Positions 7,535 through 52,852 of a stretch of DNA of 64,000 nucleotides are shown here, piece by piece. The notes under the pieces are model-generated. The model did not search any database, was not told where the DNA came from, and saw nothing but the letters and a program-made list of their open reading frames with translations. A program made the translations under genes and the position numbers. The DNA is from Ulota crispa (taxonomy: Eukaryota; Streptophyta; Bryopsida; Orthotrichales; Orthotrichaceae). Location: NCBI GenBank assembly GCA_963920765.1, contig OY987244.1:31476358-31540357 (forward strand), in the 5' to 3' direction. Each line of letters opens with the position of its first letter. Position 1 is the stretch's first letter.

Positions 7535-10500
7535 TTAGTGGAGGCTTGCGCCACTTTCCCGATCTCTTAACTTCATAATCTCAAAAAACTCGGCCATGCT
7601 TACTAAACAAAAGAACATTAGAAACAAAAGTGACAATAATTACCAGTCCAAGAATATCTTCAGGATCCAGGAATCTGTTTCTCTATTCTAGTGTATCTCA
7701 CCAAAACAACAATATCAAATTTGTTGTATTGGCATGAATTAGGCACCAAAGTTTGGCATCCAACTGCAAAGAGGAATTGAAAACTAGAACTGATGCAGAC
7801 TTAAGTATCTAGATACCCGTCTGGAAATTGAAAATTTTGAAAATTTATGCCAATATTACAAAACTCCTTGTAAAATCTGGTGATTGGAGGCTATTTTATA
7901 AATGGAAGGGAATAAGTTCAGGATTAAGCAGAAGGGAACTTACTTTCTCCATCAGCGTCCTTATCAACTGCAAAACAAATAGAAACGCAACAAAGTAATC
8001 ATTTTGTGCTAGAAATCCTAGTAAAGTCCAGTATTCATATAAACGGTTGGCCTTCAAATAGCAAGTTGGTTAAAAGCAAGATTTGGCCGGTTGCCCATGG
8101 GCTTTAAGCTTTGTATGGAAATGAGGTTGTCTATTGTCACTTATGGTGGTCTACTTGCTATAACTCCTATATGTGTTAAAATTCTTAAAGTGATGCAAAC
8201 AAATTCCTTCGAAATGATCTATTAATCAGGAAAGAGCCCTACTCTTCAATGCCGCACCTGAAAGCTTCACAAGAGATCAAAGAACTTGTAGAATGCTTAC
8301 ATTCATCAATCATAGTAATAAGCTCTTCATCTGTGATGTTTTCACCAAGCTCCTTCGTGATCTTCCGCAAGTTCTTAAGCTATGAAGACCACCTCCACCA
8401 AAAGAAAAACTCAGGTAATTAGATAGTGGATTATTGGTGTGACCAAAGAAAACATAAATGAAATCTTTTATTTATTTGTCAGCTAAAATTGGATTTACAC
8501 TCAACCCTCTCCAAGATGTATAAAAAGGAGAAACTCTTGGGATAGACAAGAAATATGCAAATTCACAGAGACGCTAGAGAGGGTTTACAAGGAAAGACGA
8601 GAATTACAGAAATTTTCCCTGTGCCGTCCTCGTCAAAGTAACGGAAAGCCTTCATCACATCTTCATTAGGATCCTTGGTTTTGAATTTATGGATCACTGA
8701 CATGCACAGTTGCGATGTTCAATGAGAGCATGTCCGTTTTATATCAAACATGATGAACCGATAATCATATGATCACAAACGACAGAAAAGAGCATGTTTA
8801 GATTACTGATTTCCAAGAATTCTTCATAATTCACTTCATCACCACCATCTTTAGAAAATTTCTGAAGCAGCATCTTCACCTCTGGCTTCTTCACGTCAAA
8901 CTCCAATGCTCTCATTGCCACCTGAATAAACATGATACAATGAAGCATCTCGCAACAATAAAAAAATAAGGGAAAATTTCATGGATACCCCTGAAGTTTG
9001 CAATATTTACAAAAATACCCCTACTTTTTCAGAAATTGCACAAATACGCTTGGACCATGATTTTTAGGCATTTATTTGTTGTGCTCATAGTTTCTTCATG
9101 CCCAATGTTGAAGAAGAGAATGTAATGAAACAAACAAAAAACAACATGCGCACAAAGGAAGAAGGAAAATGGCATGCACAACAAAACAAACACTTGAAAA
9201 TTTTGGTCTAAAAGTATTTGTGCAATTTCTGAAAAAGCAATGGTATCTATGCAAATATCACAAACTTAAGGGGTATCCATGAACTTTCCCCTAAAAATAA
9301 AGGGAAAACTTCATGGATACCCCTGAAGTTTGCAAAATTTTCATAGATACCCCTACTTTTTCAGAAATTGCACAAATACCCTTGGACCATGATTTGTAGG
9401 CATTTATTTGTTGTGCTTGTCTTCCTTCGTGACCAATATTGAAGAAGAGAATGTAATGAAACAAACAAGAAGCAACATACTTACAAAGGAAGAAGGGAAG
9501 CGGCCTGCACAACAAAACAAACGCCTGAAAATTTTGATTCAAGAGTCTTTGTTCAATTTCTGAAAAAGCAAGGGCATCTATGCAAACATCACAAACTTTA
9601 GGGGTATCCATGAAATTCTCCCTTAAAAAATAAAGGGAAAATTTCATGGATACCCCTAAAGTTTGCAAAATTTTCATAGATATCCTTGCTTTTTCAGAAA
9701 TATCACAAATGCCCTTGGACCAAAAAATTTAGGTGTTTGTTTTGTTGTGCATGCCACTTCCCTTTTTTTGTGCGCATGCATAACAAGAAAGAAGTAGTGT
9801 GCACAAAAGGAGAAGAAAGTGACATGCATAACCAAACAAACGCCTAAAGGTTATGGTCCAAGGGTATTTGTGATATTTCTGAAAAAGCAAGGGTATCTAT
9901 GTAAATATTGCAAACTTCAAGGGTATCATTCTATGTAAATATTGCACACTTCAGGGGTATCTATGTAAATATCACAAACCTCAAGGGTATCCATGAAATT
10001 TTCCCTAAAATAAAAAAGGTGGCAAACGGAGTCTATGGTGTGTGCGCACAAAGGAAGAAAGAAAGTGACATGCATAACAAAACAAACGCCTGAAAATTAT
10101 GGTCCAAGGGTATTTGTGCAGTTTCCAAAAAAGCAGAGGTATCCATGTAAATATTGCAACTTCAGGAGTATCCATGTAAACATTGCAAACTTCAGGGGTA
10201 TCTATCTAAATATCACAAACTCCAGGAATATCTCTGCAAAAATTGCAAATTTCAAGGGTATCTATTGTTAAATATTGCAAACTTCGGGAGCATCTATGCA
10301 AATATCGCAAACTGCAGGGGTGTCTATGCAAATATCACAAACCTCAGGGGTATCCATGAAATTTTCCCTAAAAAATAAAAGGTGGCAAACAGAATCTATG
10401 GTAGAATGAGGAATTACCTTGAGTTCACGATAATTGAGTTTTCCGACTTTCCGAGAATCGAACAACTCAAATGCCATCCGGATTTCTTCCTTGTGCTCCT

Positions 10501-10690
10501 CAGTGATCTTGTGCATTGTGTGTTTCCTGAACACTCTCCCAGTGATGGAACTGCGCGGGCTGGCTCCACTGTGCGACAACGGCAAGCTGGCGAAGTTCAT
10601 GCGCGTGGATGTCTGCGGTGTCGCCGTTGCAGGAGGCCGTGACAGCGGCGACGAAGTCGGCCATTTCCTGGTTCGGTCTAAATTGGCCAT
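7535..10690 (-). CDS. Centrin, centrin-3/Cdc31 class (six exons)
   Basis: Calcium-binding EF-hand protein of centrioles, basal bodies and spindle poles; the Cdc31/centrin-3 class binds Sfi1-type helices. Exons on the minus strand: 10690–10418, 8921–8807, 8696–8608, 8379–8301, 7967–7944, 7602–7535. All junctions are GT–AG, phases agree, and the sum is 648 nt (215 residues plus TAA). The core starts KITEEHKEEIRMAFELFD. Class-specific stretches include VAMRALEFDVKK, GKISLKNLRK and LGENITDEEL, closest to human CETN3. Only EF4 (residues 187–198, DKDADGEISMAE) is canonical. EF1 (78–89) lacks acidic residues at positions 3 and 5. EF2 starts with Ser and has Asp where Gly is usual. EF3 (151–162) ends in Asn instead of Glu. 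A basic Ser/Thr/Pro-rich leader of about 58 residues makes it longer than the usual 160–172. Met31 is an alternative start. Exon 5 is only 24 nt. Confidence 0.9.
8970..10369. mobile_element. Tandem/nested MITE copies in centrin intron 1
   Basis: Four units, about 8970–9291, 9302–9622, 9635–10005 and 10046–10369, are built from the same fold-back element. Left ends read GGGAAAATTTCATGGATACC and right ends read GGTATCCATGAAATTTTCCC, or close variants, and units are separated by A-rich spacers such as TAAAAAATAA. The fourth unit lacks its left end and follows a duplicated piece of host intron (10013–10040 matches 10377–10408, AAGGTGGCAAAC). The repeating ~9–10 base A-rich spacer could be a target duplication of Mutator-like length, but low complexity makes this unsafe. 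All of it lies inside the first centrin intron. Confidence 0.65.
10130..10362 (+). repeat. ~31 bp minisatellite grown from a MITE end
   Basis: About eight degenerate copies of a ~31-base unit, roughly GGTATCTATGCAAATATCRC followed by AAACTTCAG. The unit is the terminal motif of the surrounding MITE, so the minisatellite probably arose by slippage at the transposon's right end. A shorter tract with the same unit lies at 9885–9990. It sits a few tens of bases from the first centrin splice donor. Confidence 0.7.
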
Positions 10691-10792
10691 CGTCAACACC
10701 GATTCTCACACCTCCGATCGGCTTCCATTTGTCCACCAATTTATGTTAGGGCTTCAATCACGTATACAGTAACAAACAACTCCTTAATTAGC

Positions 10793-11275
10793 GACATCAT
10801 CCTAATTGCGATATCATCCTAATCGCCACAGCTGCATCTCAGGCTTAGATGGACACAAAAAGGATTTCAAAAAACGCTCTTCAAAATATAGATGCTCATC
10901 GAATTCTACATATAAGCGTTGCTACAGAAAACTTCAACATTACATGATGTGGTTTATTAAGATGGCTCTGTTCATGCATGAAAAACTGTTCATTCTTGAA
11001 CAGATCCAGAATAAATTTGAAGTAGCATTTTATCGAACTAAGCGACATCATCCTAATCGCGACAGCTGCATCTCAGGCTTAGATGGACATAAAAAGGATT
11101 TCAAAAAACGTACGCTCTTCACAATATAGATGCTCATCGAATTCCCCATAAGCGTTACTACAAAAAATTTCAACACTATATGATGTGGTGTATTATGATT
11201 GCTCTGTTGATGCATGAAAAACTGTTCATTCTTGAACAGATCCAGAATAATTTTGAAGATACGTTTATCGAACTA
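10793..11275 (+). repeat. Two ~245 bp tandem repeats upstream of centrin
   Basis: Copy 1 (about 10793–11039) and copy 2 (about 11040–11275) share CAGCTGCATCTCAGGCTTAG, GGATTTCAAAAAACG, ATGATGTGGT and TTCTTGAACAGATCCAGAAT. They begin about 100 bases upstream of the centrin start codon, in the expected promoter region. No coding frame is shared by both copies. Confidence 0.75.
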
Positions 11276-11400
11276 CTTGGCTCATTCTTGAACAGTTCCA
11301 GAGTAATTTTGAAGTTACTTATGTCGAACTACTTTGCTCATTCTTGAACAGATCCAGAATAATTTTGAAGTCACGCCTATAGAACTACTTTGCTCAAATT
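11276..11400 (+). repeat. ~62 bp sub-repeats continuing the upstream array
   Basis: The last part of the 245 bp repeat (TTCTTGAACAG, CCAGAATAATTTTGAAG, GAACTACTTTGCTCA) recurs two more times as a shorter unit, suggesting unequal exchange within the larger repeat. Confidence 0.65.
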
Positions 11401-11628
11401 GTGCTTCCTTCTGGTCTTCTATTGCTAAACTTTAGTCCACTTCCAATAGACTTGTATAAGTCGCCACAGCAGCCGACACACCGATTCTTAAACAACTCTC
11501 TCGATTTGAATCCGAATCAACTCATTTCAATTCCTAAAACTCTCTCTTTACAATCTCTCAATTTCGCATTGTTGTACGCTCACAAAAGCATAAACTATAT
11601 TGCACTATATTGCACTTAACATGTAGTT

Positions 11629-12360
11629 GCCGTGGAATCAAGAAAAGGTAGGGTTTCGATCTCAATAAAAATAGAGCCAATTTCTCTTGCACTACTTGAC
11701 ACGGAATGTAAAACACACAGCATTAAACAGAAGGAAATCAAAGTGCACAAATTCTATAATGAGACTCTCGTTCCTATTGAAACCTTGCGTAAATTCTGAG
11801 CTCCAAAATCTCGTAAAACATATTAAATGCTATCTGATTTTTAAGGAATTGCGGATTGCACTTACATTATTGCAATTGCCGTGGAATCAAGAAAGGTAGG
11901 GTTTTGATCTCAATCAAAGAAGAGCCAATTTCTCTTGCACTACTTGACACGGAATGTAAACTACACAGCATTAAATGTAAGGAAATCAAAGTGCACAAAT
12001 TCTATAATGAGACTCTCGTTCCTTTCGCAACCTTTCGCAATTCTGAGCTCCAAAATTTCGTAAAACATACTAAAGTGATCTGACTTTTAAGGAATTGCGG
12101 ATTGCACTTAACATGCAATTGCCGTGGAATTAAGAAGAGGTAGGGTTTCGATTTCAATCAAGAAAGAGCCAATTTCTCTTGCACTACTTGACACGGAATG
12201 TAAACTACACAACATTAAATATAAGGAAATCAAAGTGCACAAATTCTATAATGAGATGCTTGTTTCTTTTGAAATACTGCGCAATTTTGAGCTCCAAAAT
12301 CTCGTAAAACAAACTAAATGCTATCTGATTTTTAAGGAATTGTGGAGTGTAAGTTGGGCA
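11629..12360 (+). repeat. Three ~245 bp tandem repeats (second family)
   Basis: Copies start near 11629, 11879 and 12121, each with GCCGTGGAAT, then GGTAGGGTTT, CTCTTGCACTACTTGACACG, GTGCACAAATTCTATAATGA, GAGCTCCAAAATCTCGTAAA and TTTTTAAGGAATTG. This is a different sequence from the repeats at 10.8–11.3 kb but of similar period. Short frames within each copy are shadows of the repeat and are not conserved to their ends. Confidence 0.8.
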
Positions 12361-12838
12361 CTTTGATGTGCGGAGATTGAAATTTGCGAATGAGCGTGAA
12401 TGGCGAAGAGTGAAAGATGCCATGAGACAGGCATGAGTGCCGAATGAAGTGAAGGTGAAGGTGGTGAAGCAGTTGGAGGTCCCATGAAGACGAGGAGCTC
12501 GTCGACCACGTGCTCTCGTGGCAGTTGGCTCTGTTTCGTCGGTGGTGTTTTCATCCGTTGGCGGAAATTTTCATTCGTTAATGAGGTGTTTGAACTCCAT
12601 CACTCACTCCACGAAATGCGACTTTTCCCTCCTGTAGACCAGGGTGTTTTTCTGGGTACTTCACATGAATAGTAAAATGCAACGTGCCCTCTGAGGTAAG
12701 GATAGTTTTTGGAGGGACAGAAGTACATTTGCTAAAATCGAATCTGCAAACTTGGAATTTGGCATTATAACGCCAAGAAAAAACCTTATCTACAATAGAA
12801 TCATTTGAGGGTAAGGTAGACATACCCATTCTCAACCG
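12361..12838. other. GC-richer intergenic segment, no gene supported
   Basis: 12380–12560 is richer in GC than its surroundings and carries overlapping open frames on both strands. None shows a domain, and the minus-strand one runs into the TTAA element at 12839. It could be a promoter or a gene remnant. Confidence 0.35.
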
Positions 12839-13076
12839 TTTAACCCCTGAGCGCCCAAAGTTTTTTTTGGATTTAGGAGAAAATGGGGGTTTAATGACCA
12901 CCACAGCTTGGAAAATTACATTCAGAAAAAATGACCGTAGGATTTGAAAAAGGACTATCTTCTCTGCTAATGGGAACCAGCCATGACTATTTTCACTTTA
13001 CAGATTAATAAAAAAAATGAGATAAAGTTGTGGGCCCCAACAACAAGATCCTGTCGATGGGGCGCTCAAGGGTTAA
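12839..13076. mobile_element. TTAA element (piggyBac-like MITE), 238 bp
   Basis: The left end reads TTAACCCCTGAGCGCCC and the reverse complement of the right end reads TTAACCCTTGAGCGCCCC, so 16 of the first 17 bases match and TTAA is present on both sides. It shares its termini with the elements at 40589–41349 and 54634–55433. There is no transposase frame. Confidence 0.75.
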
Positions 13077-15190
13077 GGGTTTAGGGTATCGCACGGTTTT
13101 TGAAATTCAAGAAAAAAATCCGTAAGGTTAGCCTTTCAACAAGCTATTATGGAACATCATTTTTGTGGAAAAAAGTGTTGTAAAATATTTTATATTAAAG
13201 GGCAAAGTTATAGCTCATAGCTAGGGTCCCTAAAAGCAATTCAAGACTAACCTTGAAGTTGCTTGGATGTGTTCCTATAACGCCATTTGATGGTCATAAT
13301 CCCAACCCTCTTGAACTAACTTAGCAGTTAACATGTGGCAAGATTTGTTTGTGCAAGTAGCATTCATTACTTTACTTTGGACTTAATAGTGTATGGTGAA
13401 ACCCTTAAATCTAGGGTGCAGAATTTAGGAGCTACTTGGGAATGGGTGTGTCTACCTTATTTTTATTTATTTATTTTGAGGGCATTAAACATGCCCTATC
13501 TTAGATTTTTGAGTGGAAAACCATGCCATAGAATTAAAGTTTTGGATGTTTTTCAAAATTTTAATGAGAGAGCTTGGTCTTAATTTTTGACAAATTTTGA
13601 TTGCATTTGAAGAATTAAAACCCAAACTAAGTTACTAATAAATCATATGACAACACAATATGTAAATGAAATGTTTGTATGAGTATACAATTAGTCCTTG
13701 TGACAAACCACTTGGTTGATGTTTTTGCAAAGTCAATAGAAATTTATTTGAATATCGGTTATTACAGCTCTTGTTTAGTGCTTCCAATGTCTAAAGAGTG
13801 AAATATCAATGGTGATAATAATTTCATTTAATTTTCCGTTGAGAAGCTTCTCTCACAAGAAGTTGTGCTATCTAAAATTATTAATATAACTTGCCAAAAA
13901 TAGTTTACGTTATGATAAAGTACCTTTCAGTATACTCTATAGTAAAAGAATACATTATTCTAACTTGGTACATATTAAAATGACCATATATATATGATGT
14001 TTGCACTCTTTTAAATTTTCTCCATCAAATATCAACAAAATAATTAGACATAATGTATGAAAAAGAATGCTTTTGAAAAATAAAGACCTAAAATCTAAGA
14101 CTTAAAAATGAAACCAACGTAGAGAAAGTTGATGCAACAATTGAATGAGTATAAAGGCACCAAGTTTCTATGTGGTGTATTATTGTCCATCTAAGAATCT
14201 TATTTATAATAAAAAATCTTCCTACATTTTGCAAAATTTCTTACATTCCAAACATGTCCTCCAAAGTGAAAATAAGCACTCCATGGTTTACAAACTACTC
14301 AATTAAAACCCAATTGACATAAGAGACAAGCACTTAGGGCACCATCTTTGACAATTGGTGCCTTGTGATTATGGAAAGAACAAGAAAATTGATTATCCAC
14401 ATACATGTCAATGTAATGCCATGTTCATATCATTATTAACCTTTACAAAAACAATCAATAATTTTTAATTAATTTTATTCATGGTGTTTAGTCTTCATAC
14501 ATATAGGTATTACTAATCTGTCTACAACTTTTTCAAGCACATGGTCAAGATAGAAATAAGATTACAAAGGTGTATGCACAAATCTTACACGAAATATTCA
14601 AAGTTGAATTACAAGGTTAACCTAAACAAATTCATCTACGTAGATGGGGTAACTTTGGTGAAATGTTAACTAGATGTATTTTGCTAGTCTTTCTTTTCTT
14701 ACAAAAATCCTTCATAATTTCAGAATATCAGCTCTCTAGGTATTTGTTGTAGGACAATGTTTTGGTTCTCAAAAATGTGATCCTAAATCACTTAGAAAAT
14801 TTACACTTCCTGCTTATGATACATCTTGTAACTGCAGTCATTATACTTTTGCATTGGACTTGTAAAGATTTAGTTACAATGCAGTGTGCAAAGTAAAATT
14901 TTGATTTGTATGATGCAATGACTGAAACTAATGACTTTGTTCTCATAAGATCTGATAAGACCAAGGCAAAACCGACAATTATCTTCCACAGGATTAGGAC
15001 AAAACCAACATTTTTCTCCCACAAGTACTCGTATTGTTGCAAGCACACAAGAAAATTGACGAGCAGAACACTACAGATCTTCAATGAGAAAACTTTCTAT
15101 GAGAACAACTCACAAAACTTTACGGACTAGAGCACTCGGATTTGAAACCCACGTGCAAATGATTTAAAAGACATCGTAAGAAATTTATTT
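13077..15190. other. AT-rich intergenic DNA, no gene seen
   Basis: Short frames only, without domain or coding character. A small hairpin (GGGCACC and GGTGCC near 14337–14390) resembles the one at 4.7 kb. Confidence 0.55.
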
Positions 15191-16050
15191 TTCAGAGATG
15201 TTTTTTGTAGATTTCAAGTACATTATCTACGTCAAGGTACATACACAATTGTGGTCACAAAAGTGTTCCTTCCCAGTTTCCCAGGTTTCAACATCAAGCT
15301 TTTCCTCTACAGCACGGTCTTCAGTAAACCAAGCTCACTTTTTCTTAATCTTACTAACTCCTTCTAAGTACTCGATTTGTAGAGCTCTCTGCTCATCAAT
15401 GATTCGTTTCTTCGAATCTCTCCAGTATGCTCGGCAGCTATCAGCTCTTTGTACGGCAGGTCGGAAAAGCTGTTATTTTCACCATGGTTTGCGATTAGTC
15501 ACTCACACAGCCACAGGTCCTGCCAAAGACTGCTCAATACTAACCTACAATGCTAATATGGTTCATTATTTGTACTGTTCAAAGGTTCTATACTGAAAGG
15601 TACATCCACTTATCCATGCATTGTTGAAAATCTTTCAAGACCAAGCAGAAGAACGTTATAACAGACATCATGCTAAAAACCTATACATGTGCGAACCACT
15701 ATCTGAATCACTTTAAATTTTCAGAAGGACTGCTTTGGATAAATACCTGATAATAGTTATTCTATTTCGATTTTCACCATGCCACAAGTACTGGCTCAAA
15801 AGAAGCACCTTCTGGAGTCGCTCCATGCCCGAGTTGATAATGAAGCAGATTCCCGTAGTTTGAACATTCAAAATAATAAGCATCAACATATTTATCGATG
15901 TAAAAACGCTTGTCGCATCCACATTTCCACTTCAAATCTTCAGACGCTCCGAAAAACGCCCAACTAGTCCAATGCAGATATGACCCACTCAATTAGTTTC
16001 AAGGTCTCACATCTAGAGCTACTTGCTTATACATGAATGAGAACGTGCAT
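15191..16050. other. Left flank of the satellite array
   Basis: Base composition becomes more balanced here and matches the array more than the AT-rich DNA to the left. Fragments such as TTTTCACCATG recur (near 15476 and 15772), but no unit could be aligned to the array monomers with confidence. Probably decayed array DNA. Confidence 0.35.
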
Positions 16051-16980
16051 CTTTCTTCATGTGCAGAGATAAATACTAGCCTCGTTCTAATACTCACCCT
16101 AATCAGCAAACAATCAAAAGTTGATGAGGCACAGTTTGCAGGCAAGATCACATGGCGCAAGATTGGTGAATGACATTGAAAATATACATTAGATAGTAAA
16201 CTTTCTGATTGTCACTTCTTTCCACGAAAACTCTATTGCTCGATGAAGCGTAAGACGCTTTTGCACCGCCCAACCTCTTCAAGTTTCAATGACTCCCGTG
16301 AGTTCAGTAGGCTGGTTAACATTTCCTCCACTGGAAGTCGCATTAAAAAAATCACATATTGCCCGTACACATATTGGCCGGCAGTAAATATCACAATGCA
16401 ATTCAACCTGCAAACAAATAATATGCCTGGCGGCCTCAAAGGAACGCAATTGCAAATAGTGTGAACAATCGATCAAAACAAACTTCATGAAACAGAAACA
16501 GGCTCAGGGGAAAGAAAAGCTTCCAGGAATGGCGCCAATTAGCCAGGCTCTTGCACAAATTTCTCGACCGTCGTCATACACAAAATGGACTGCTGATAGA
16601 TAAAACCTGGATAAACAGGTCCCCGTCAAAACATATGAAATGATCATATCCCCAATCTCCCAAGAGAATTTGAACTTTGTTAAGCTGAGGTAATCCACGA
16701 GAGACCGTCAATATCAGTGTATGTCCCAAACATGTGAACTCAGTAGGATATGGGTTTAAAGAATCCTATGTATCAGCCGACTCCGTCGGCGAGTAAGTAC
16801 TTTTGCTCGTCCTTCAAACGTCGAAGGGTTTACTTCTCGTCTCTTTAATATAAATTTGTAACCAACTGCCAAAAAAGAATATCAGTTTCCCAATGGATTA
16901 ATCTTGATTGATTGCATCTCCCAAAGAAAAGGAAATAGAAGCGATTCCAGATTAAAATTGGTAGCGTAGGATGAAAAGAA
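16050..16980. repeat. Long-form junction segment, first occurrence
   Basis: Recurs with indels at about 21325–22010. Shared blocks include AGATAAATACTA, AAAGTTGATGAGGCACA, ATGGCGCAAGATTGG, CAGGAATGGCGC, TTTCTCGACCGT and TATCAGCCGACTCC. It is absent between copies 2/3, 3/4 and 4/5. Confidence 0.7.
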
Positions 16981-19900
16981 GCTTGTCTGTAAGGTGTCAG
17001 GTTCAAAGTGAAATTTCAAAAGAGTAGTATCTCCTCGAGTAACTCTGTTCTCTCAAAAAATTCATCCATCCTCGGAAGTGTAATAGGCCCCTGTCAAAGC
17101 AAGAGTACATCACCAATGAATCAAACTGCAAAAGGAATGCGTTCACGCTGTAACACTAAAAAACGCAGCATTGACAAGGAAAAAGGTTTAAAGAAAGCCT
17201 GTATCAAAAGTCTTCAACGAACTAAATCTTCAAGCGAATTAAAATACTCCGACCGCCAGCCACACTCAAGGCTACGAACGCCACTTCCATTTTTGTGCGG
17301 CTCTGCCAACCACGAGCAGATTACGAATAAACCAAGACCATCCACTACGGCACACTAAATGGCAGCCAGGTATATAATAAAAGCAAAATCTGCCGCTATA
17401 ACATAATCAACAAACTGATGTTGAAATCTGAATGCAACGCAGGCAGAATATAAAATGCAAAGGGCCTCAAAAAAATCCTTCAAACTGACGATCGCCAGTC
17501 TTTAATGAGTTCATTTCTACAAACACATCATAATTCTCCAGACACGCTCCACACGTTGAAGCTTGCGCACGATTTGCACTGAATGCCGTGAAAATCTGTG
17601 CCACTCTGCCAAAAAAGGACGATTCACTTTACAAAGAGCCAACCAAATACCACATCTTGCAAGTAAGAAAACCAATACAAATATTGAACAAACGAGGCAT
17701 GCGAGAATACGGAATCAAGGTGTGAGTCATGTTTAAGAAGAGCCTGTCCGTCGAAAGTTGGAATCAAGACTCCAGATATTCCCGCTTTCAGGTCCTTCAG
17801 AATCGTATCCTTCTGCCATGTAAAGGAAATCCTCAATACAATCCACGCATTCCACTTTAAGTGACAAACTACTCGAAATGTACCAGCATTCCAGAAAGGA
17901 AAGATAAATAAAGTTTCAAGAGAGCCTGGTAGACGATCGGATTAAACGTAGTAAAATCTCCAAACTAATTGTCCAGCCGGACACCCTTTCTTCCATACTC
18001 GAAATCGGTACGAGACTCCGTTAAACTGCCAACCATACCAAAACTGATAAACCATGCCACAGATCTACGTTGAAAGAACAGAAGACATGTCAAATTCAAA
18101 AGTCCGTAGAGAGGGTTGAAAAGGAGCCTGAGTAGTGCGCCATGAACGAATTAAATCATGCCGTTTTTAGAAGAGCAGTTTGCGCACGACATACTCGCCA
18201 TCTGTCAAGAAAGAGCAATTCACCGATGAACCCAACCACACAGTTGAAATTTTCTTAGGAAATGCACTGAATGTCAACACCGAGAAAATTGGACGAGGTT
18301 TCGAAAAAATCTGTATATTGACGGTCGAAAGAGTGAGTATCTAGTTCAAGCGAGCCTCCGTCTCCAGATGTTTCCGGTGCAGGCCTGCATTCAATAACCA
18401 TTTCCAAAAAAGTACTCTTCTCAGCAGTTTACCAGAATAAAAAATTTCTGGGTTGTATAACATGGTCAACGCATTTATCACAAATCGTAACGATATACAA
18501 AGTTTTCAAGAAGACTTCTCTATCAAATTTTAACCCCATCAATCTTGGCCAACTTGTGATACACACGCATCCTGTCCTAGGTGCATATCCATGCACATTT
18601 TCAAATCATCGCAATGTGTGAACTAGTTACTGATTCATCCATGAAGAAGAGCACGGTGCCAGTTTTGAATAAAACGATTCAGGCGACAAATCCGAAGATT
18701 ATGCAATTACTAAGAAGATAGTACTGTCACATGCTGTGCAATAAGTTGCATCTTCAAACGAGTTAAATTTCTCCACACACCGTCTCGACGAAAAGGCACA
18801 CACCTGTTTCAGATACATATGTCAAAACTCAATCAAAAGGAAAGATCATCGATGTAATGTGTTGACACAGGTGTCAACGAAAAGACACAGTAGCGTCCTT
18901 CACAAAACATTCGAAGCATTCAATTGATATTTATTGATAACTACGCATCCAAAGAGCCAGTCTACTTGATTCAACTTGCGCGAACGGGTTTTCAAAGCCT
19001 GTTAACCGGTATTTGTAATCTTGCACGATCCACTAGACTCCACGCATCCGTTTCGCTTCAAAAAATAAAGACAACAACCGGCAAAATGTTACAAAATCCC
19101 TGCCCTTCTCCGGATGGTAAGGAATCATCTCTGAAGTAACCGAGCAAATAAATGTCCAGCTTAAATACAGATGCAGCAAAAGCCTTGAATGCATGAAAAC
19201 AATTATTCTGAAGTATAGCATGAATAGGATTCCAAATAGCCAGTTATTCTGCAGCCGAATATCTTCAACGAATTTAACTCTTCCACGCAATCTCCTTTCT
19301 TTTCACACCAAAGATGCATTCTCGATTACCCAAATGTGCATGCCTCTGCCATAATGACGGTACACTTTGGAAATGACTTTGTAAGGGTTTTGTTCGACTA
19401 TCCAACCAATATAGAATAGACCTTTTCAACTAAAGGAAGATTAAGTAAAGCAAAACAAGTTCAGAGTTTCAAAAGAGCCTGTTCTTCGTAAGTCGTAATC
19501 TTGCACGAATTAAACTTCTCCACAGAACTGCTCTCTTCAAAAGCATGTATGAGATTCTCCACTTTCCTCAGATATATATGCCTCTGTATGTCGGTCAGCC
19601 GATTTACACAGATGCCAGAAGATGTATACATTTGATCACGCGTTTCGCTCTAACAGAAAAAGAAGAACTACAGCAATCGCAACGAACTGATAATGTTCAC
19701 ACAATATCCAAGATGCACAGAAACGTGTCGGATACAAACCGAACAATTTGACGTGATAATATTCAAGACATTGTTTTTGTACGGAGGCAGCGCTCTCCGA
19801 AACGCACACGCCCTCCATAAGGTATGAGAATCAGCCTCTGAGGAAAACATGTAATACACATCTCCGATAGCACAATTTTGCAAAAACATACTGGAGATGA

Positions 19901-38837: not shown

Positions 38838-38865
38838 TTTTTATTTTAATTTGAAACTAGTGTGG

Positions 38866-39968: not shown

Positions 39969-40396
39969 AGGCCTCTTTAATTTACGTTTTTTCATAAATT
40001 AACAAATTAGCTTAATTTATGCACATCATCATAGTTAATTTGTGTATTGTCATAAATTAACAAACTTATTTTGATATTTGCATATTTGATATCATATTAA
40101 ATGTGACAAAGCACAAAATTGCTTGCACTTCAACCTCTCAAGTGAGAGGTTAGTCAACAATTTATAATGCTCATCTTTTGAGAGTTTAAGAATAGAGAAG
40201 TTGGAATCAACTCTGGCCATTCTAAGGAACATGGTGGCCTTGTCGGCACAAAAGTTACACAATGACTGTCATGTGGCATATGCCAAGTGCAAACTTTTTT
40301 TTATAAGGAACCAACTGGCTTAATTTATGCACATCTTCAAGGGCTAATTTGTTAATTTGTGCATTTATTTTTAGAAAACATAAATTAAAGAGGCCT
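39969..40396. mobile_element. hAT-like MITE with 8 bp target duplication
   Basis: The left end reads AGGCCTCTTTAATTTACGTT and the reverse complement of the right end reads AGGCCTCTTTAATTTATGTT. Flanks are AAGATAAT (39961–39968) and GAGATAAT (40397–40404), 7 of 8 matching, as expected for hAT elements. Inner arms also pair (TTAATTTATGCACATC on both). It lies inside the older TA-flanked element. No transposase. Confidence 0.7.
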
Positions 40397-40588
40397 GAGA
40401 TAATGGTTATGGGTGACAAGTGCAACTCATTTGAATGCCAATGAGTTTGGACATAGGTTTTGTGGATGGCGTTAAATAGTTTTGCAATACCATGAAAAAT
40501 AAACAAAGTAGGTGAACACACTATTCAAGTACCCAAGCATGGTATTCTATCACCTTTCATGACAATTATGGGTGCTTCATCTTACTAT

Positions 40589-41349: not shown

Positions 41350-41629
41350 GTAACTATTCAAGCTAGTTTTCAAACGTATGAGTATAGTGAAAGCTTCAAT
41401 AATAATCCCTTTTAGCATCTCCTACCGACACAACTACACATTTTCAATGATTTTGGACTTTGAAAAATCTTTGTGAAAAAATGCTTCCAATTGGAAATTT
41501 TAAATTGATGCCAATATTTTTGGTTTCCTCTTACTTACTTAAATAACCTTTTTTTTTTTTAAAGTTCATTAGTTGATTTTCCTACTTCAAAGTCCTTGGT
41601 TTCACGCTTATGGGTGTTGCTACCTTAAT

Positions 41630-42490
41630 TGGTAAGTTAGATTAGGGACGAGCAAATGTATGATTTGCAAACAAATGGATGAATAGCCTAGTATGAACAC
41701 TGGGGTAACATCTATAAACAACAACTGGGAGTTCTAACGCAGAGTACACATTATAGACATAAGTCTAATTCCCTTGATTCGCCAACATCATTGGAATCCT
41801 CATTTGTCACCAAACCGATCAAAAGTAGAGCCTCTAAATCAAGTTTGGTTTTTGAAAGGTGCTCTACATAACTAGCTTAAGTTGCAACAAAGACTGCATT
41901 ATGTGCTAAATTTTCAAATTTGACACTCTTATAAGGCTTGCTGCCAAACTAGCCCAAGTCACTACAAATGGGAATTAGACCCATGTTTGAAATTCAAAAA
42001 TATGACATTCTAGTATTTTACATTCAAGCTTGTTAATCCTTAAATTGTATATCCAATTCAAGGGCCTGGTGTTTACAGGATCTTTCTTTGTGCGAGAGTA
42101 CCACTTCTACGCGCATGTGAGGCACAAAAGTCAAAGCTACTAACCATCATGAAAATACGCTTCCAAAACCAACTTTTGAACCAACCTCGGATTAGTCGCC
42201 CTTCCACATGAAAAGAGGTGGAAAACAAAGCGTCTCCCCCTAGCGTTATACACACCGTGTCCACAAGCGTTTGATATGATGGAAGAAGAGGTTTTTGCGA
42301 CCGACATCATTCACAACTGCCTTCATTCAAAAGGTTGAACATGTTGGCTTCCCTAGGAATGTGTCCGCCCCACAAAGCTCTACAGAAAAAGAGGTGCTGC
42401 AAAAGTCAAAGGCGCGGAAATGGCAAAGTTAATAAGTCAGTCTGGCTCACCTCAACAGTAGAGGCTCACGGAGCGCATCGACTTCCCTTC
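41630..42490. other. Intergenic DNA, no gene seen
   Basis: AT-rich to mixed composition with short frames on both strands that show no domain. No repeat with clear ends was found. Confidence 0.5.
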
Positions 42491-42496
42491 TTAATA

Positions 42497-42869
42497 TTCC
42501 CTCCGTCCCAAAATGATCTTCTTGTTACACAAAATGTTATACATTAAGCTCAAAAAAGAACCATTTTTCAAATTTTTTTGACCTATGAATAGAGTTTGAT
42601 GTCCTCCTATTGTACTGAAATTTTGAGTTTCAAATTGGTTTTCAAAGTGTGGTTTCAAAATGCTTGAAAATTGAACTTTTGAGGCATTTTTGAAGAGCAT
42701 TGGTAGCCACTCACTTGATGGCATGGGATTGGTTAGCATGCCCATGCTTTTGGACTATGTGCAAGTGTCACTAGCTCCCTTCCTCCTCCAACAAGAAGAT
42801 CATTTTGGGACACTAAATAAAGGTCAACAAGAAGGTCATTTTGGGACAGTCATTTTGGGACAGAGGGAG
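42497..42869. mobile_element. Stowaway-type MITE
   Basis: The left terminus reads TTCCCTCCGTCCCAAAATGA and the right end reads TTTTGGGACAGAGGGAGT, the classic plant Stowaway CTCCCTCCGTCCC inverted repeat, flanked by TA (42495–42496 and 42870–42871). The right end carries extra degenerate copies of TCATTTTGGGACA (near 42800 and 42837), so it was duplicated locally. Non-autonomous, 373 bases. Confidence 0.85.
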
Positions 42870-42871
42870 TA

Positions 42872-43751
42872 GCAAACTCCATTGATGGTCCGGCCACACA
42901 TGATTTAAGCACAAGCACATGGGCTGAATCAATGAGAAATGCATCTCAAGGGAAAGTACAAGCAATGAGGAAAGATCTAAAGAAAAGAGGAGAATTTGAT
43001 CAACATTTACATGCCAAGAAAAAATAAATTCAAACGACATGTCAAGCATAGTGAAGAAGTTGGCATTCTCTAACTCGTCTCCTTAGCAGAGGTTGTCAAT
43101 TGAAGCGTGTCAGTTGCACTGGGAACTCAAGTACCGGTACTTGGACATTCATGGGTATCCTTGCTTGTAACCAAGCGTGTGAAAAGGCTCATCAATCCTA
43201 ACTTTAGTTTGGTTTAGTCAGGATTTGAGAGGGTGGCAAACGTTCTTCTATAGCTGTGTCCGCAAGATGCGTGACCCAACACTCTCATGCGTCTATGCCT
43301 GAGCCTTATAGACTTCTGGCAAGGGCTAGCTGGCTGGCTGGCCGGCTTACGACCAAACGCCCCTCCTGAAAGATTGTTTAGAAGTACCATTCTGCCGGCG
43401 TCTAAGTCAAAGATTCTCGTCTCCGAACCGGATTTTCCCTGCAAACCCAATCTATAAATAAGTGGTGGTGCTTCTGTACATCAGCTGTTGTGGAATTGTT
43501 GACTATGTTTCTGCAGCACAGATTGTACTCATCAATAACCACTGTGTTTCAAAACACGGCAATAGAACATAGGCCTGCATGGAGCGGCCTAAAGAGAATC
43601 GTAAAGCTGCTGAAGTGGCTGCCACCGACTTGAATCTGTAAATGTTGACTTCTTATCAGCAGATCCAGGCGTGGTAGTCGAAAGAAGATGTGCAGTGCCA
43701 AGAACCGAAGCACATGGTACAATAACAGCACAGCTGAGCATGTAGTGACTT
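42872..43751. other. Region downstream of the Sfi1-like gene
   Basis: Contains the presumed 3' untranslated region of the minus-strand gene ending at 43752. The minus-strand frame at 43214–43450 is open for 78 codons but has no recognisable domain. A second open frame overlaps the last exon in another phase and is judged a shadow. Confidence 0.45.
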
Positions 43752-46700
43752 TCATCGACTATCCCACAACGGTCCGGAACTAGGGCCAGCTTCTGGAGGG
43801 GGCCTAGGTGTTGCTCTAGTAGAGCCACTTCTATTTGAAGGATCCTGCTCACGTCCATGGACACACCACCAACAACCTTAGATCCTTGATTTCCACAGCT
43901 TTTTTTAGAGTTTTAGAGCAAGGATTGTGAGTATCATTTAAATCTAAAGAGGTACTCCTTAAGAGAGCACTTCATCTGATGGGATTCCCTATTGTAGATG
44001 TGTTGCACAATTTCAAGTATTCACTTCACATAAACATTGACCACGAGTACTGAAAGAGGAAAAAATGTATGGTCGATGCTTACGTCTGGCAGGGCCGAGG
44101 TATCTCGCAATCGACTCATGATACGAGCCTGCAAGCGTTGAATTTCAACGTGTAGGCTGTCGACCGCATTGGGATCATCATCCAGTATCACGCGATAAGA
44201 AGAGCCTTCACCTGCTGTTTGCATCATTCCTCCACCCCCGCCTTCAGAAGGCTGCACTTGCTCTCTTCCGTCTGTCAGACCATATCCAGGCTCCGCTATG
44301 TTTCCTGGCGGTGTTGGCCTAGTCGTAGAAACCAGTGCAAAAGACGTCTCCCAGTCAGGTTGCGACATATCTTGCCCTTGATACAACAAGACTGAACGAC
44401 TTTCCTGATCGAGCGAGTCCTCACTTGGCATCCCAGGCTGCCTGGAAGTTTCAGTACCAATATCCATGTGTGCAGGTTCCTTGACGTGAGATGACCTGGC
44501 CGTAAGTGATGCCGAAGGTGACTCTACTTTGTAAGATGTCATCGCCGGCTGGGGCGCACGAACCTCTGAGTCGGGTGCCTTATCAAGAGAGGGCGTGGAG
44601 TCATCTTGAGGTTCAAAGAGTTTGGCTTCAGGTACGGATCCAGGGCCGTCAGTGAAACTTGGCATTTCCGCTTGTCGGTCTTCTGAATTTGAGGTCGAGG
44701 CTGCAGGCACATATCCGTCATTACGATCTCTTTCTGTCGATGTTTCTCCTTCCATGTTCGTAGCAGGATTTTGTTGTTGTAGAGCATTCTTGGTTTCCAC
44801 GTAAGTATTGCGAATGGACTCCTTCACTTTAAGAGAACGAAGCCCTCCGCGGAAAGACGAACTTGCATCATGATTGAATTGTGGGGTTGCTGACCAGGAA
44901 CTTAAACTTGAAACGAACGTTTTGGTCTTCAAAGCTGCTTCTTCTGTGTTTCATGAAGTATGAGCAGAAGATGAAATACATTATTTTCTAACTTTCCGGT
45001 TTCCAGACGTAGTCTAATTAGTGAAACTATTAATAAGAAAATCATTCTGTATTTTGGAATCGTAAGTCAAAATATCTACGCTTGAAGAAGTGGCAGAAAG
45101 GTGAGATGGGAGGCTTTGAAAAATGAAATGATAAACTGGTGATCAAAAACTAAATACTGATACATGCTCTAGGATTTATTTGATTGCGATTTAAAATGCA
45201 AAATTAATCTCGACTCATCGACTTGGTGTCCAGCACAAAACCATGGATGTGATAATATACCAGACAGAAGCTTTAGCTCGTATTCCAATTTTCGTACACG
45301 ACTCTCTTTGAGATCCATTGCTAGCTCCAGATCCTGCAAATGCTGTTGCGTCTCTTGCACCTGCAGCACCAGATTAATAAATTCTCGTTTGCACTTCAGA
45401 TTGAAAAAAAATGGTCCTTTGATGTGCAGGAGTTTTGAAAAATGTCGAAATCGTTTTTAAGTGCAGATTCTAGGACATAATAAGAACCGCAGTTTGTTAC
45501 GAAATAGACAGTACCTCTTGCTGCTTATTACAAAGCATAGACTCCAGCTCTTGGATGCGTGCGTCCCTGCATTCGACGGTTTCACATAATGTGCAGTTTG
45601 CCACTGCCAATTTACGTTGCACCTCCCCTAACTCCAGTTCACGCCTCTGTAATGTTCCGAAGCACGTTAGTAAGGAAATCATAGCAGTATGCGGCTATAT
45701 ACTCACGATGATTATGATCTAACAGCAGCCAATCGACATTGATGAAGGCGTTCATGGTTAGAATTGGGGTAGCCATAGACAGCTAATACTAAAGAACAAA
45801 GAAACTCGATTTCCTCATAAATTCCTTACCCGGCAATTTCCTTCTAAAGTGGCAAATTGATTTTCACGGTCCTCCAACAGTTTCCTTAATGATCCAGCAA
45901 TCTCAAAAGCGCTAGTGAGTTTTTCTTGAGATTCATCCGATGCTCCTTCGAGTCTCTCAGCCGTTTCTTTCAAGGCCTGCAATGAGCCCAACAGTCGACC
46001 ATTGAAATAAGCAGTCAATATTTATTGAAGATAATGATGTTTGCAAGGGCGCCACAAATGGCTACATGAAAGAGTACGATGTGACGTAATGCTTTGTGTG
46101 ACAGTTTCTGCTGATGTTCATGCAGCCCATTGTCATATGGTGTTATGCAGAAAATTGAATATCTGACACAAACCTTCTCGTAGGAATCAATTTGAGAATT
46201 TCTCTCAGCCAATTGGCAGCGGAGCTCCTGAAGAGCCTGTTCCAAGTTTTGAATTTCCAGGGTATGATGAATCTCTCCAGCTGTGTCCTCTGCATTTTTC
46301 ATTTGGAGCTTTTTCTGTATCAATATAGTTCCAGCAGTGGTGTCAGTTTATATCGAAAAAAAACTAACTATACAAAATAATAATCGTGTTCAGTCATTTT
46401 AAAAGTCCTTTCACAGCATTATTCTTTACATAGATTTAACGGTAACATGTATCTCCGAAGCATAAAGCAATAAAACAATAGCCTTGTGTTCCAAAAAATT
46501 TGCAAATTATATAAGCATCAGTCTCAGACCATAGGTGAGGCACTCGAAGGACCCTAAAAAATTGAACGCCCGGATGCTATCCTTTGCAATGGGAATGTGA
46601 TCAATCTCTTAACCATAAGAGTCAACGGGTAAACGCTTTAGAAGGTGATAATAAAATAAGCGTAAGGGTCGCCAGAATAACAGAATCGGTGAGTATACCT

Positions 46701-49700
46701 GAAGGCTTTGAATCTCAATGTCGAGCTCCTCAGCTCGTACTTGTTGCTGCTCGATCTCACCTTGCATGGAACTTTCGAGAACGGCACCATCTTCTAGAGC
46801 ACGATGAAGATCCTCTTCTTGTTTCTCCTTGTCACAGATAGTGGTCTTGAGGCATGCTATTTCTGATGCCATTGTATGGAGGCGGTCAATCAATTGAAGG
46901 TTCTCCACATCTACGGTTGTTACCTGCTGCTTCTGTTCCTCAAACTGTGCCTAAACAACGTACAGTCCAAGTTTGGTTGGTTCCCGTCTTCATTGCTTCA
47001 AGTTATTACCACCTCACACATGCATATTCAAGATGAAGAGGACTTACAACAAAAGGGATTATCTTCAGCAGAAACTGTCAAGATTATACGATCTGGTATT
47101 TTGGCTAATTCACACCAACTTTCTTCGTGTAACGACCTCTGCATATTTGCTTCACTTGCAAGTTTAAATTTCCTCCATTATATTTGTGCAATCATGCTAG
47201 TTCAAACATCCTCTCCTTGTTATAAGCTCTTCTGCTTCATCGTAGTTCATTACAAATGCATATATTTAGTGACGGTAAACACATCTAAAGCACTTACCCT
47301 GAAGTCAAGCAGTTGAAAGACCGGTTGTTACACATTTCGGACAAAGAGCTTGAGGAAGAAAATAGAATAACCATGTATGAGAGAATTCTAAACTGTAACG
47401 CTCAAACGAGAAGCAAACGTATGCTTCCGCTAAAAAGGGCAACGAATGAATTCGAAACTAAAAGTTGATGGTTCTCCTGAGCTCAGGAATCTCAGCAACT
47501 ACTCGAGATGAGATTCAGCTCATATCATATATTAAGCGCTACCGTACGTGAGAATCCCAAACATGAATGGCGTACAAAGAGTGGTCATCAGTCACGATAT
47601 AGGAAGATAGGCACCTGAGCTTCCAGAAGATCATCGTGAAATTTGGCATTTGCTAGCAGAAGGCCATCAAAAGTGGCGTGCATCCAAGCATGCAGAGTTT
47701 GGATGAGTAGCGTCCGGCGGCGCCGTACTGCCAATAAGCAATCTAACTGTATGGCCTTACGCTTCCATGCCATTTGCTCCCACCACCATCTCAGTATCGA
47801 CTTTGTCAGCTGTACACACACAAATATTTGCATGTTCATTATTCTGACGGCAGCTTAACAGGCGGGTCTCCAGCTGAAGTTGTCAATGCTCAGACGTTGG
47901 GCAAAGGACGGTTAAAGATAGGATGGTTAAAACAAATTAGGCCCAATCTGGTTTATATATTCACCTTGGACTGTTTCCGTTTTCTATATATCGCAGCCCT
48001 GCATTCCTGCTTTTTCCTGCATTGGTTCGAAATCAAGAATAAGTAGAGTTCATGTCGTGTATTTCAGATGTCTAGTACATGCAAAACTCAGCAAATCACA
48101 ATAAATTATAATAATTATTCTCAAATTGGATCTTACTTAATAGATTTGTACACATGATAGTCACGCCAAAAGACCATTGCTGCCCTTGTAAGCGCCTGGT
48201 TGAATTCTGCTGTAGCTCTCTGTCGTGCCTTAACATAATTGATATTTTCTCTCCAGGTTTTCAGACTCTAAAGAATTGAATAAGAAATCAAGAAAATCTA
48301 TAAATGAGTACTAGAACTTTGAGCTCTAAGATACATATCAACGCGGCAAACAATGTTCAATAGTATTCAGAGAAGCTTGCAGAAATTGAAACATGCCTAG
48401 AATTACATGATAACAGTTTCATAGGTGCTAAAGCTTTAGCTTTCTGAGCCACCTATATTTCTGTATATCTGACCAGCCTTTGTTAAGAATCAGTTTAGCT
48501 GGAGAGAGTGGATAGAAGTAAATGCTGCTTCAATTTGAACCCGTTAATGTGCAGCACGAGAACTAAGCGATTGAGAAAGTTGGAGTTTTCTAACCGAGAT
48601 TGAAAGGGCACGAAGATAATGTCGAAAAGCCATTTGCTTGTAAATGCGCATGTGCATGAGATGTTGGAGAAAATTACGCCAGCATCGAAACACCCATTGT
48701 GCTTGTCTGTAAGTTCTGACTTGGAAGGCTCGGGTTTTGCGTAGCCTGCTGAGCTTCACTTCATTTAAAGCATCTTGCCACCTGCACAATGATACCAGAG
48801 AATACACTATTTACACTCGGTACAAAAAGAGTGAATTGGGTTTGACTTAACCCCTTGATTCATTTTGAACTGGGCAGAATCTTTCGAATCAGTTTGTTCA
48901 GAAAAAATCTGCTCCCATCCAGTTGAACCCGTTTGAGTGCAACCTTGATAATCGGGAAGAGTCTAGAACTCTTATTCGACCCAATTAGGAACCGCTATGC
49001 TCAAGAATGTTCAAGCAGCTTGAACTCAGCAGAGAAACGACTAGGATGCTCTATAAATAGAGAGAGCCCTACCGAACTGAACTAGTATTGAAGATTGAAA
49101 AGTGTAGCTGTCACAATCAAGGGAATAGGTGAGTAGGAAGCCTAATTAGACTTAGAAGTAAGAACCAAACAACCATCACCACTCCGAAGGTATCATTCGC
49201 GAAGCAGAGAGAGATGAGAAATAACCTCCAAATATATTACTCCTTAACCTTGATGAAATTTTAGAACCATCCCCAGATAGTTACAGATCAGGCGAGAATG
49301 TACGAATGTACAAGACCTGGTGAGACCACGTTTTATGGAGAGATTATTGCTTAGATTGATGGCCTCCTCATATTTCATGCGGCGAACCCATTTTACATGT
49401 ATTATGCATCGCCACGCAGCTATTGCCTGCTTCATTATCATCTTGTTGATGTGGGCCTGCACGGCTGCAAATTTTTTCTTCTTCGGTCGTGCGTATAATT
49501 TGAGCCAGTCCAGCCAAGACAAAAAATAATGACGCGAAGTCATTTTGTTGTAGTGCTTCACGGCTTTCGCCGTGAGAATATTCTCTTCTTTCGGCGATAC
49601 TCTCCACTGCTTTACAAGCCATGACCACGCACCAAAGTAGGTCTGCTGGCACCTCCGACTCCAGTGTTTGTCCGCCACTACAAATCGCTCCGGATTGAGG

Positions 49701-52700
49701 CGTAAGCGGATCATATAGGTCACCCAAGCGTGCATTCCACTTTTCACTCTTCCAGCTGCTTGTCTTTTCAGTGATTGAGCTCCCCTTCTCTTAGCAATAG
49801 TGCTCAACCTCCAGATTCTCCAGCACGCTTGAAACGCAGCCTGCAAATTCCGAGTGAAACGTGTGAAATGAAAATCAACGTGCGCAACATTGAAGGTTAA
49901 AGAAACTTCTTTCTTACTAACCATACCTCAGTCACTTATGATCGTTGCAACCTTCAAAACTAGTTGCTAAAGTCTTCATCTATCCAAGTGACAAGCTAAA
50001 GATGCATGAATTACCGAATAAGGAAACCAGTAACTTAGGGGAGGAACATGAATCATTTATATTGAGACAGATGCGTCTAGTGCATAAAATTTGATGCATT
50101 TCATCTCTTCATCAGATGAAGATATTGTGTCCCCTACCACTAACATCATAGGTTCTGTAGAATACAGAAGCCATCAATTATCAGAAAGAGGAATAGTTAG
50201 ATTTTGAAGGATCCATGTAATCAAATACCTGGCATTGTCGGTTGTATGCTCGACGCATTATGCAAGCGCGATAAGAGGCCATTCGCAAAAAATTGAATAT
50301 CTTTTTGCAGCAATTTTGTCTGTACTGCCTTTCGGCGTGTACAACGTTAGCCCTATCAATACATTGCTCCCTCACTCCCTTTTGAAGATTTATGAAGGCC
50401 CGCCGAGCCACTGATTTCTTTCCCATTCTGTCCAATTTTTGATCCAATTGCTCCTGTATTTCTGTAAAAGTAAGATTGACAAGCTCTCTGACAAGCACCT
50501 TCACCCTACGATAGTGCAAGAGCTTGTGAAAGTAGGACCTAGACCAAGGAATACCACAGTTGATTTTACTAATTCTGATACCTGTATATGATAAAAGCTA
50601 CAGAAAGCTAAAACTGAGATGGTCTTCTCGTTACATAGGAACTGTCAACTCAAGGAGTAACTTTTATGATGTGAGTATTGGAGCCACGGGGATTCCAACA
50701 TTAAGGAGACCCATCTGTTTATATCCTCTTACCTTTAAAATTAGATCTCGAAGCTCATTGCTATAGTCATCAGCTTTCTTTTTCAAAAAAGCTGTTTCCT
50801 CAGCAAAAGTGGCAAGTCGTTCTTCCAATTTAGCCTTGACGTCCAGAGTGGATAGCAGCTCCGCCTGCACAGACCAAAAGCGCGATTGTAAGCACTGAGC
50901 ACCTCGTGCACTGACATAATAGCAAAACGGCAATTTTGCATCCCCTGTTCTCTGCATTCTCCCAAGCACTGGGCAAGTGATTATACTCGTAACTTGAACG
51001 CATTATACAGGAAGCTGAATAATTTATTTTTAAATGGAATATTTACTATCCTACCGAATGATGGGCTCCACATTCACTTTCCAAAAAACTCAAAATCACT
51101 AATATCTGAACGCCTACTGAAAATCAAAGACAAATACATTGAAAACGCCGGTTCACCTGAAGCTGATTGACTTTCTCCTGAGCTTCGGCCTTTTCCCGCA
51201 GATTTTCATTCATATTCTTAATGCGATTCTGCAGAGAGGTCCTCTCATTTTCAAACTCGAGGACCCTTCGTTGTAGAATACCCTCTACTTCCTTTTTCTC
51301 TTTTTCAAGAGCCGTTGCTCTGGAAACATAGCACCAATTAGTAACTGTCTATAATGGTCCCTGGATAGCCACGCTGAGAGATTTGGGTAAGAATATGTAT
51401 TACAGTGTCGGCTCATGAAAACAGATCGGTTCCTCTAAGTGCTGGAAAAATGTTGGAAAACTAATTACGGACCTGTTACAGGAGAGCATATAGAAGCAGT
51501 ATTTTGACTGCAAAAAGTAGTTTCCAGGATTCTAATATAAGATTACTGCTCTACCTTTGAGCCAACCGACGCTGCAGCTCAAGTGTCTGCTCCATATCCT
51601 CATGGAGAGTATTTAGCTCGCTCTCAGCTCTCTCCACATTTTCATGATTTTGTTTCATGTACAGCTCCAGCCTGCAAGCGCGCAATCGCCAAATACCGTG
51701 ATTATAATTTTAGTACAGTTGTCGCACAGTGTCAACCATCGAAGAAACTGCTTGCCAAGTTTGACGGACCAGTTCCAAAGTGCAAATATACTGTTGAAAT
51801 TTCAACTGCTCTTGATTATTAACCCTTGTTAGCATACACCCTCAACTTTTCATCATCGTTGTCACTCTTCGTTATAAACGCTTAGAGCTACTCCATGAGC
51901 TAACCAAACAAAAATCATCCTCTTCTAGTGTATTGAACATTGGCAGCGGCGAAGAATTTTACTGAAATTGTTTCTCAAGCTCTGGTAGCTGCGATTTTAG
52001 AATCGTGCGAAATGAATGGAACCGAGTACATATTTGCACAGTGCGAGTACTGATATGGATAAAGTGAGTAGACCTTTCTCGAAGTTGTTGATTTATACTT
52101 TGCAACCGCTGCTCGCCGTCAATGTGAGCTTCTAAGTCAATCTGCAAAGCCGCCACCTGGCGACGTAAAGTAGCAGCATCAGAAGCTGGGGGCACCATCA
52201 AACCTTCGGCTCGCAGGCGTGGTCCAACTCGAAGCATCGATTGGTGCTGCCCAACTGGTGGATGATTAGCCATGTTTCCAAATCCTGATCCCGTCCTTGT
52301 GAGAGAACTTCCAACTGGACTCCCTCCAGGAATAATAGTGGATGTAGGCTTGCTAAATGCTACGGACTTGTTCATCCCTGGGCTGCTTCCCAAAGGACTT
52401 GTTCGGCTCGAAATGCCAGACATGCTTGAGCATCCAAAATTGTTTGCCGGAGCATTTCCCCCTCCAGCTTGTGCCTGCAAAAAATTGTAAACATACTTTC
52501 AACTCTTAACTAAGATGGAGTCAAAGCGAGAGAACAGAAAGCCTCATTGTCGTGCTACACTATCTGCCATATCTTCCGCTCCAGTACTTAATTGCAGCTG
52601 AATTTAGAACAACGTAATGACAAGAGAAATGTGTTGTTACATCAATTTAAAAGGCTTTTCAATCGAACGGACCATGTCCTAGCATCATATCGACAGATCC

Positions 52701-52852
52701 AAACGAAAGAGTACTACACTAATCTTACTACAAAACAAAAACACAAGTTAGCATACGAGGATTTCCAACGGTAGGGCAGAGCATACCGAGCGGGGGGAAT
52801 GATAAGGACTCCGAGAATTTGAAGGTCCAGCCTGTGAGTGGGGATTGTCCAT
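43752..52852 (-). CDS. Sfi1-like centrin-binding coiled-coil protein (17 exons)
   Basis: Exons: 52852–52787, 52474–52074, 51671–51555, 51319–51157, 50864–50733, 50597–50229, 49840–49317, 48781–48595, 48267–48137, 47843–47615, 46950–46699, 46314–46174, 45976–45830, 45646–45515, 45360–45261, 44943–44084, 43844–43752. All junctions are GT–AG and in phase; 4044 nt give 1347 residues. Layout: Ser/Pro/Gly-rich head (1–100); coiled coil (about 110–290); a basic helical zone (about 300–760) with Trp repeats, e.g. AFQACWRIWR, GMHAWVTYM, YFGAWSWLVKQW, YFLSWLDWLKLY, AIAAWRCI, VFRCWRNFLQHL, AMVFWRDY, ILRWWWEQMAW and TLHAWMHATF; second coiled coil (about 774–1030); long acidic Ser/Pro-rich tail. The Trp spacing matches Sfi1 helices, each of which docks one centrin. 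An in-frame TGA lies 18 nt before the ATG. The start of exon 6, exon 10 and exon 17 are the least certain junctions. Confidence 0.85.

Follow-up and report, generated by a model that had tools for sequence, protein, structure and literature searches.

We found that a 64,000-nucleotide stretch of the Ulota crispa genome (the window; C3:31476358-31540357 of a 274.8-Mb genome) carries two genes on its minus strand, one for a divergent centrin and one for a scaffold protein in which 11 repeats of the Sfi1 type, predicted to bind centrin, lie between two coiled coils. Both genes are real. Their products are possibly partners that work by an Sfi1-like mechanism, and their neighbourhood is probably due to chance; we give this reading as a whole a probability of about 70%.

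The centrin gene (7535..10690, minus strand) consists of six exons, placed by the splice model at 10690-10418, 8921-8807, 8696-8608, 8379-8301, 7967-7944 and 7602-7535 and separated by five GT-AG introns. Its open frame encodes 215 aa with no internal stop, and its strong Pfam matches are to EF-hand families, so that the 215-residue centrin reported in the first-pass annotation was confirmed to the base. The four EF loops lie at aa 78-89, 114-125, 151-162 and 187-198, of which only the last is canonical: EF1 (DSRKVGKLNYRE) and EF2 (SKDGGDEVNYEE) are without the key ligands, EF3 (DEDGTGKISLKN) has Asn as its last residue, and EF4 (DKDADGEISMAE) has the canonical form. When the protein was searched against PDB, the eight best matches were centrins, caltractin or Cdc31 (133-157 bits), and the best calmodulin-containing chain was a fusion with 122.8 bits. 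With four EF-hand units and a closer match to centrins than to calmodulin, the window protein falls within the centrin family. At 8961-12346, in intron 1 and upstream of this gene, there are also tandem repeats whose units measure 331, 30-92, 236, 56 and 244 bp.

A search of the genome for centrins gave at least 32 matches, of which 11 fall on four identified centrins and on a fragment on contig C3, two look calmodulin- or kinase-like, and 19 were left unclassified. The identified centrins are located on C3 (the window gene), C4, C5 and C8 (10.4 Mb). Those at C5:16.74 Mb and C8:10.42 Mb are paralogues of the window gene, and their exons 2-5 have the same lengths as in the window (115, 89, 79 and 24); the end regions of both models are uncertain, above all on C8. 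The centrin at C4:8.54 Mb belongs to class 2, with 98% identity over the aligned part to the PDB caltractin 3kf9 of the green alga Scherffelia; this match and the general look of the genes point to the green lineage. The fragment, at C3:29975000-29981000 and 1.5 Mb from the window centrin, is a one-exon piece that is 67-68% identical to it.

The first-pass annotation had assigned the window centrin to the CETN3/Cdc31 class. Alternatively, it might be a fast-evolving class-2 centrin (CETN2/VFL2) or a separate lineage that long branches have pulled toward CETN3/Cdc31. In a tree of just ten sequences, the window centrin and its two paralogues formed one clade (UFBoot 100), and this clade joined CETN3 and Cdc31 with a UFBoot value of 97, which argues against the alternative. 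AU tests argue in the same direction, since they rejected the placement of the three centrins in class 2 (p=0.0025) and a green class-2 placement (p=0.0174). For a separate basal lineage the AU test gave p=0.033, but the KH (0.051) and SH (0.060) tests gave no rejection at 0.05. Support for the CETN3/Cdc31 split was 94 when the window centrin was the sole one of the three kept and 97 without Cdc31; its value of 82 without CETN3 speaks for the alternative, as do the small size of the tree and the calmodulin outgroup, which joined inside class 2 with low support. The PDB scores also lean that way, because class-2 centrins matched the window protein best, with 156.8 bits versus 133.3 for Cdc31. 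Of eight diagnostic columns, the window centrin matched class 2 at two, class 3 at two and neither at four, and each paralogue matched class 3 at four, neither at four and class 2 at none, a pattern that favours the alternative for the window protein and opposes it for the paralogues. We regard the alternative as serious though somewhat unlikely; the earlier class assignment holds in the small tree and its AU tests only, the diagnostic residues of the window centrin being split.

The small tree supports a reading of the window protein as a centrin of divergent sequence that falls with CETN3/Cdc31. It resembles CETN3/Cdc31 in tree position, and has in common with CETN3 an EFDKD stretch at EF4 and an ISL(K/R)NLR stretch at EF3; its identity is 50% to CETN3 and 48% to Cdc31. 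The absence of ligands from both EF1 and EF2 sets it apart from CETN3/Cdc31. Its N-terminal part is also longer, residue 57 being aligned with residue 20 of centrin-2.

The second gene (43959..52852, minus strand) contains 18 exons and encodes 1284 aa, according to a splice model that is supported by paralogues on C6 and C8. An Sfi1-like gene on the same strand with its start at 52852 had been annotated before; these points stand, and its length of 1347 residues is replaced by 1284, with the end at 43959. Genome searches found three full Sfi1-repeat genes, on C3 (the window), C6 and C8 (13.5 Mb). In the spliced alignment of the C6 paralogue (18682420-18672905), all 18 exons were placed and 16 have the same length as in the window, the unequal ones being exons 2 and 17; exon 1 as aligned contains a stop, so its border is unsafe. 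Exons 3-16 of the C8 paralogue (about 13532442-13517147) are equal in length to those of the window gene, and its first exon and exon-17 region are unsafe. Because the window protein was the query, these spliced alignments lean to the borders of the window gene. Two further matches to coiled coil 1, at C5:20920358 and C8:17253486, were considered as full genes and rejected: the 9.5-kb stretches around them align convincingly at the exon-3 segment and nowhere beyond it, so they were counted as fragments. The stretches themselves, C5:20918500-20928000 and C8:17252500-17262000, hold degenerate copies that amount in essence to exon 3 of this gene.

The encoded protein is composed of a low-complexity N-terminal part, a first coiled coil, a repeat domain, a second coiled coil and a low-complexity tail. 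On the minus strand, coiled coil 1 (aa 106-293) spans 50733..52225 and coiled coil 2 (aa 732-1000) spans 44909..46950, both with introns included and both delimited by identity and heptad power, and the repeat domain (aa 294-731, exons 6-11) occupies 47615..50453. We called coiled coils from the 3.5-residue hydrophobic periodicity, compared with 500 shuffles. The power was 0.76 for aa 106-293 and 0.68 for aa 741-1000, against shuffled means of 0.23, and none of the 500 shuffles reached either value; the repeat domain showed no excess (0.28 vs 0.25 shuffled). The two coiled coils recognised in the first reading of this DNA correspond to these two periodic segments. A Pfam match to PKcGMP_CC at aa 935-963 (E 4.9e-6; 26.4 bits, below the cut-off of 35) fits a coiled coil. 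The repeat domain has a net charge of +70. Among the three paralogues, aa 294-731 align without gaps, with identities of 62% (C3/C6), 37% (C3/C8) and 36% (C6/C8), and for aa 106-195, at the start of coiled coil 1, the identities are 91%, 97% and 88%, respectively. At 88-97% versus 36-62%, this segment is far more conserved than the repeats, whose register is nevertheless unshifted.

Eleven Trp anchors were recognised in the window protein (W378, 407, 440, 477, 511, 544, 577, 610, 639, 675 and 708), in place of the approximately nine Trp repeats counted earlier. Their spacings of 29, 33, 37, 34, 33, 33, 33, 29, 36 and 33 residues have a mean of 33.0 (SD 2.4), and the autocorrelation of Trp is highest at 33 (p=0.003), as in the tandem repeats of about 33 residues that mark Sfi1-repeat proteins. 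The anchors were picked by eye on Trp, and the three paralogues are not independent; the anchor residue is Phe in one of their 33 repeats, on C8. The count excludes two units near aa 315 and 348 that have no Trp. In PMC5112337, the Sfi1 motif is given as Ax7LLx3F/Lx2WK/R with a 33-aa periodicity, which places Ala at -16, LL at -8/-7 and F/L at -3 from Trp 0; PMC8622359 has it as AX7LLX3F/LX2W. When the 33 repeats of the three proteins are pooled, 20 carry Ala at -16, and no other offset has more than 7; for Phe or Leu the peak is at -3, with 19 repeats versus 10 at the runner-up offset. In the window protein, 7/11 repeats have Ala at -16 (1.2 expected) and 7/11 have F/L at -3 (1.4 expected), a position that is hydrophobic in 11/11; Trp stands at 0 in all 11 (the anchors), and K/R follows at +1 in 5/11 (2.4 expected). 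The LL positions are weak, with hydrophobic residues in 5/11 at -8 and 5/11 at -7 (2.8 expected). When the comb was slid over 32 shifts, the joint score dropped from 125.5 to at most 36.5, partly by construction because Trp counts in the score. For each paralogue, the Trp-anchored motif score exceeded that of every one of 2000 shuffles. Judged by residue positions, the repeats largely fit the Sfi1 motif at its published offsets, that is at Ala, F/L and Trp, and partly at LL and K/R.

A PF08457 match at residues 300-760 had been named beforehand as the test on which the Sfi1 identity should stand or fall, and it is absent: PF08457 did not match the whole window protein at E up to 1, nor the repeat domain in any of the three paralogues at E up to 10; above 0.1, most matches are removed by the HMMER filters. 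The genome-wide silence of PF08457 says nothing, because 14 controls were silent too. In PDB searches run without a positive control, neither the repeat domain nor the 33-row repeat profile nor the three-row family profile reached the Sfi1 chains; two weak matches of the 33-row profile, m4D2 and myoglobin, are unrelated. AlphaFold2 predicted one 174-aa exon (exon 7) as mostly helical with helix breaks, at low confidence (pLDDT 48.3). Given the lack of a PF08457 match, we filed the protein as an Sfi1-repeat protein and not as an Sfi1 orthologue. The motif test is nearer than PF08457 to what defines centrin-binding repeats. Quite unlikely is a reading of the protein as a helical scaffold with coiled coils in which the Trp-rich repeats bind calmodulin or some other partner instead of centrin: the missing Pfam match, the calmodulin-like frames in the genome and the stronger conservation of aa 106-195 in coiled coil 1 point that way, but Ala at -16, F/L at -3, Trp at 0 and the 33-aa period together make up the Sfi1 signature. 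Centrin is thus the likely ligand of the window repeats, as far as motif positions can suggest.

Sfi1-repeat proteins have been described in yeast, ciliates and vertebrates (PMC8622359 and PMC5112337), and are reportedly also present in Toxoplasma. The following comparisons draw on PMC5112337. Sfi1 of Saccharomyces cerevisiae has in common with the window protein the 33-residue period and the offsets of Ala, Phe/Leu and Trp; it has 21 repeats, compared with the 11 recognised here, and, unlike the yeast protein, the window protein has heptad-periodic segments on both sides of its repeats and no PF08457 match. The SFR proteins of Tetrahymena form a multi-gene family (13 genes) whose Sfi1-type repeats are recognised by motif, as here, and Tetrahymena Sfr1, with 3 repeats in 212 aa, is unlike the window protein. 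POC5, a centrin-binding centriole protein (PMC6070942), was compared by description; its repeats have been likened to the Sfr1 tandem pair (PMC5112337), whereas the 11 repeats of the window protein form one regular array. Among the best matches in the open-licence literature, no title named Sfi1-repeat proteins of land plants, and the text of PMC3268115 makes no mention of centrin or Sfi1.

SAS-6 N-terminal domains are encoded at two places in the genome (C6:14.07 Mb and C5:4.25 Mb), together with 29 Dynein_C fragments that group into nine places, axonemal and cytoplasmic dyneins being pooled. Since these are present, the genome very probably encodes the ability to make cilia. A genome search for RIB43A gave no match and was uninformative, because its controls were equally silent. 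A basal-body role for both products is plausible in view of the class-3-side centrin, the Sfi1-motif repeats, and the SAS-6 domains and dynein heavy chain fragments.

In the mechanism that we propose, the 11 central repeats, at 33-residue spacing, would form the centrin-binding part of the scaffold. The C-lobe of one centrin, of whichever of the four kinds, would clasp the Trp of each repeat as in Sfi1; such holding of the C-lobe by a repeat Trp is described for Sfi1 and ciliate repeat proteins in PMC8622359. The row of centrins along the helix would then make a fibre by which basal bodies are linked or positioned, and the coiled coils would probably either dimerise the scaffold or attach it to a further protein of the basal body. 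Such a fibre would act in bryophyte sperm formation, in which a bicentriole gives rise de novo to the two basal bodies (PMC9014216), a process for which the same paper names SAS-6, Bld10 and POC1. In Marchantia spermatids, centrin marks the basal bodies and the multilayered structure (PMC6290024). The Sfi1-repeat proteins, encoded by three genes and fixed in their 33-residue register, share a genome with cilium genes and are candidates for linking the de novo basal bodies of plant sperm. A tentative extension, which we hold to be doubtful, is that the three coiled-coil Sfi1-repeat scaffolds, of the plant lineage, and the three divergent CETN3-like centrins arose through parallel duplications and together build linker fibres dedicated to the basal-body apparatus of sperm, while the class-2 centrin, which is conserved, is retained for different functions.

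The distance of about 33 kb between the two genes was given correctly in the first-pass annotation, and its further suggestion that the linkage may be selected found no support. Among the identified genes, one of three Sfi1-repeat genes, that of the window, lies near a centrin, and the linkage is not repeated in the paralogous loci: none of the at least 32 matches listed is on C6, and on C8 the Sfi1-repeat gene and the centrin are 3.1 Mb apart. That the pair is a selected linkage group of partners, maintained so that both are expressed jointly while sperm form, is very improbable, since a shared minus strand, the 33-kb distance and a probability of about 0.4% for one or more of the 3 x 4 = 12 pairs falling within 45 kb at random placement (computed after the pair was seen, among many pairs on which a reader might remark) stand against two other Sfi1-repeat genes with no near centrin among the matches listed and a 21-kb tandem array that separates the pair. 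Chance is the simplest account of the neighbourhood.

Most of the DNA between the two genes is filled by this array (window 16974-37921), in which a unit of about 4.17 kb recurs five times in tandem at 79-86% identity, the last copy being cut short. Third-position changes are not in excess in the open reading frames of the array, including one of 154 aa, and one frame tested gave no Pfam match. No tRNA was found within the window, and Rfam gave no matches there at the gathering threshold. A genome search with the unit gave at least one copy in the window, plus a 0.37-kb match on C6; because the search missed other copies within the window, it leaves confinement of the unit to this place unshown. 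The unit has a strong strand skew, with an AT skew of about +0.18.
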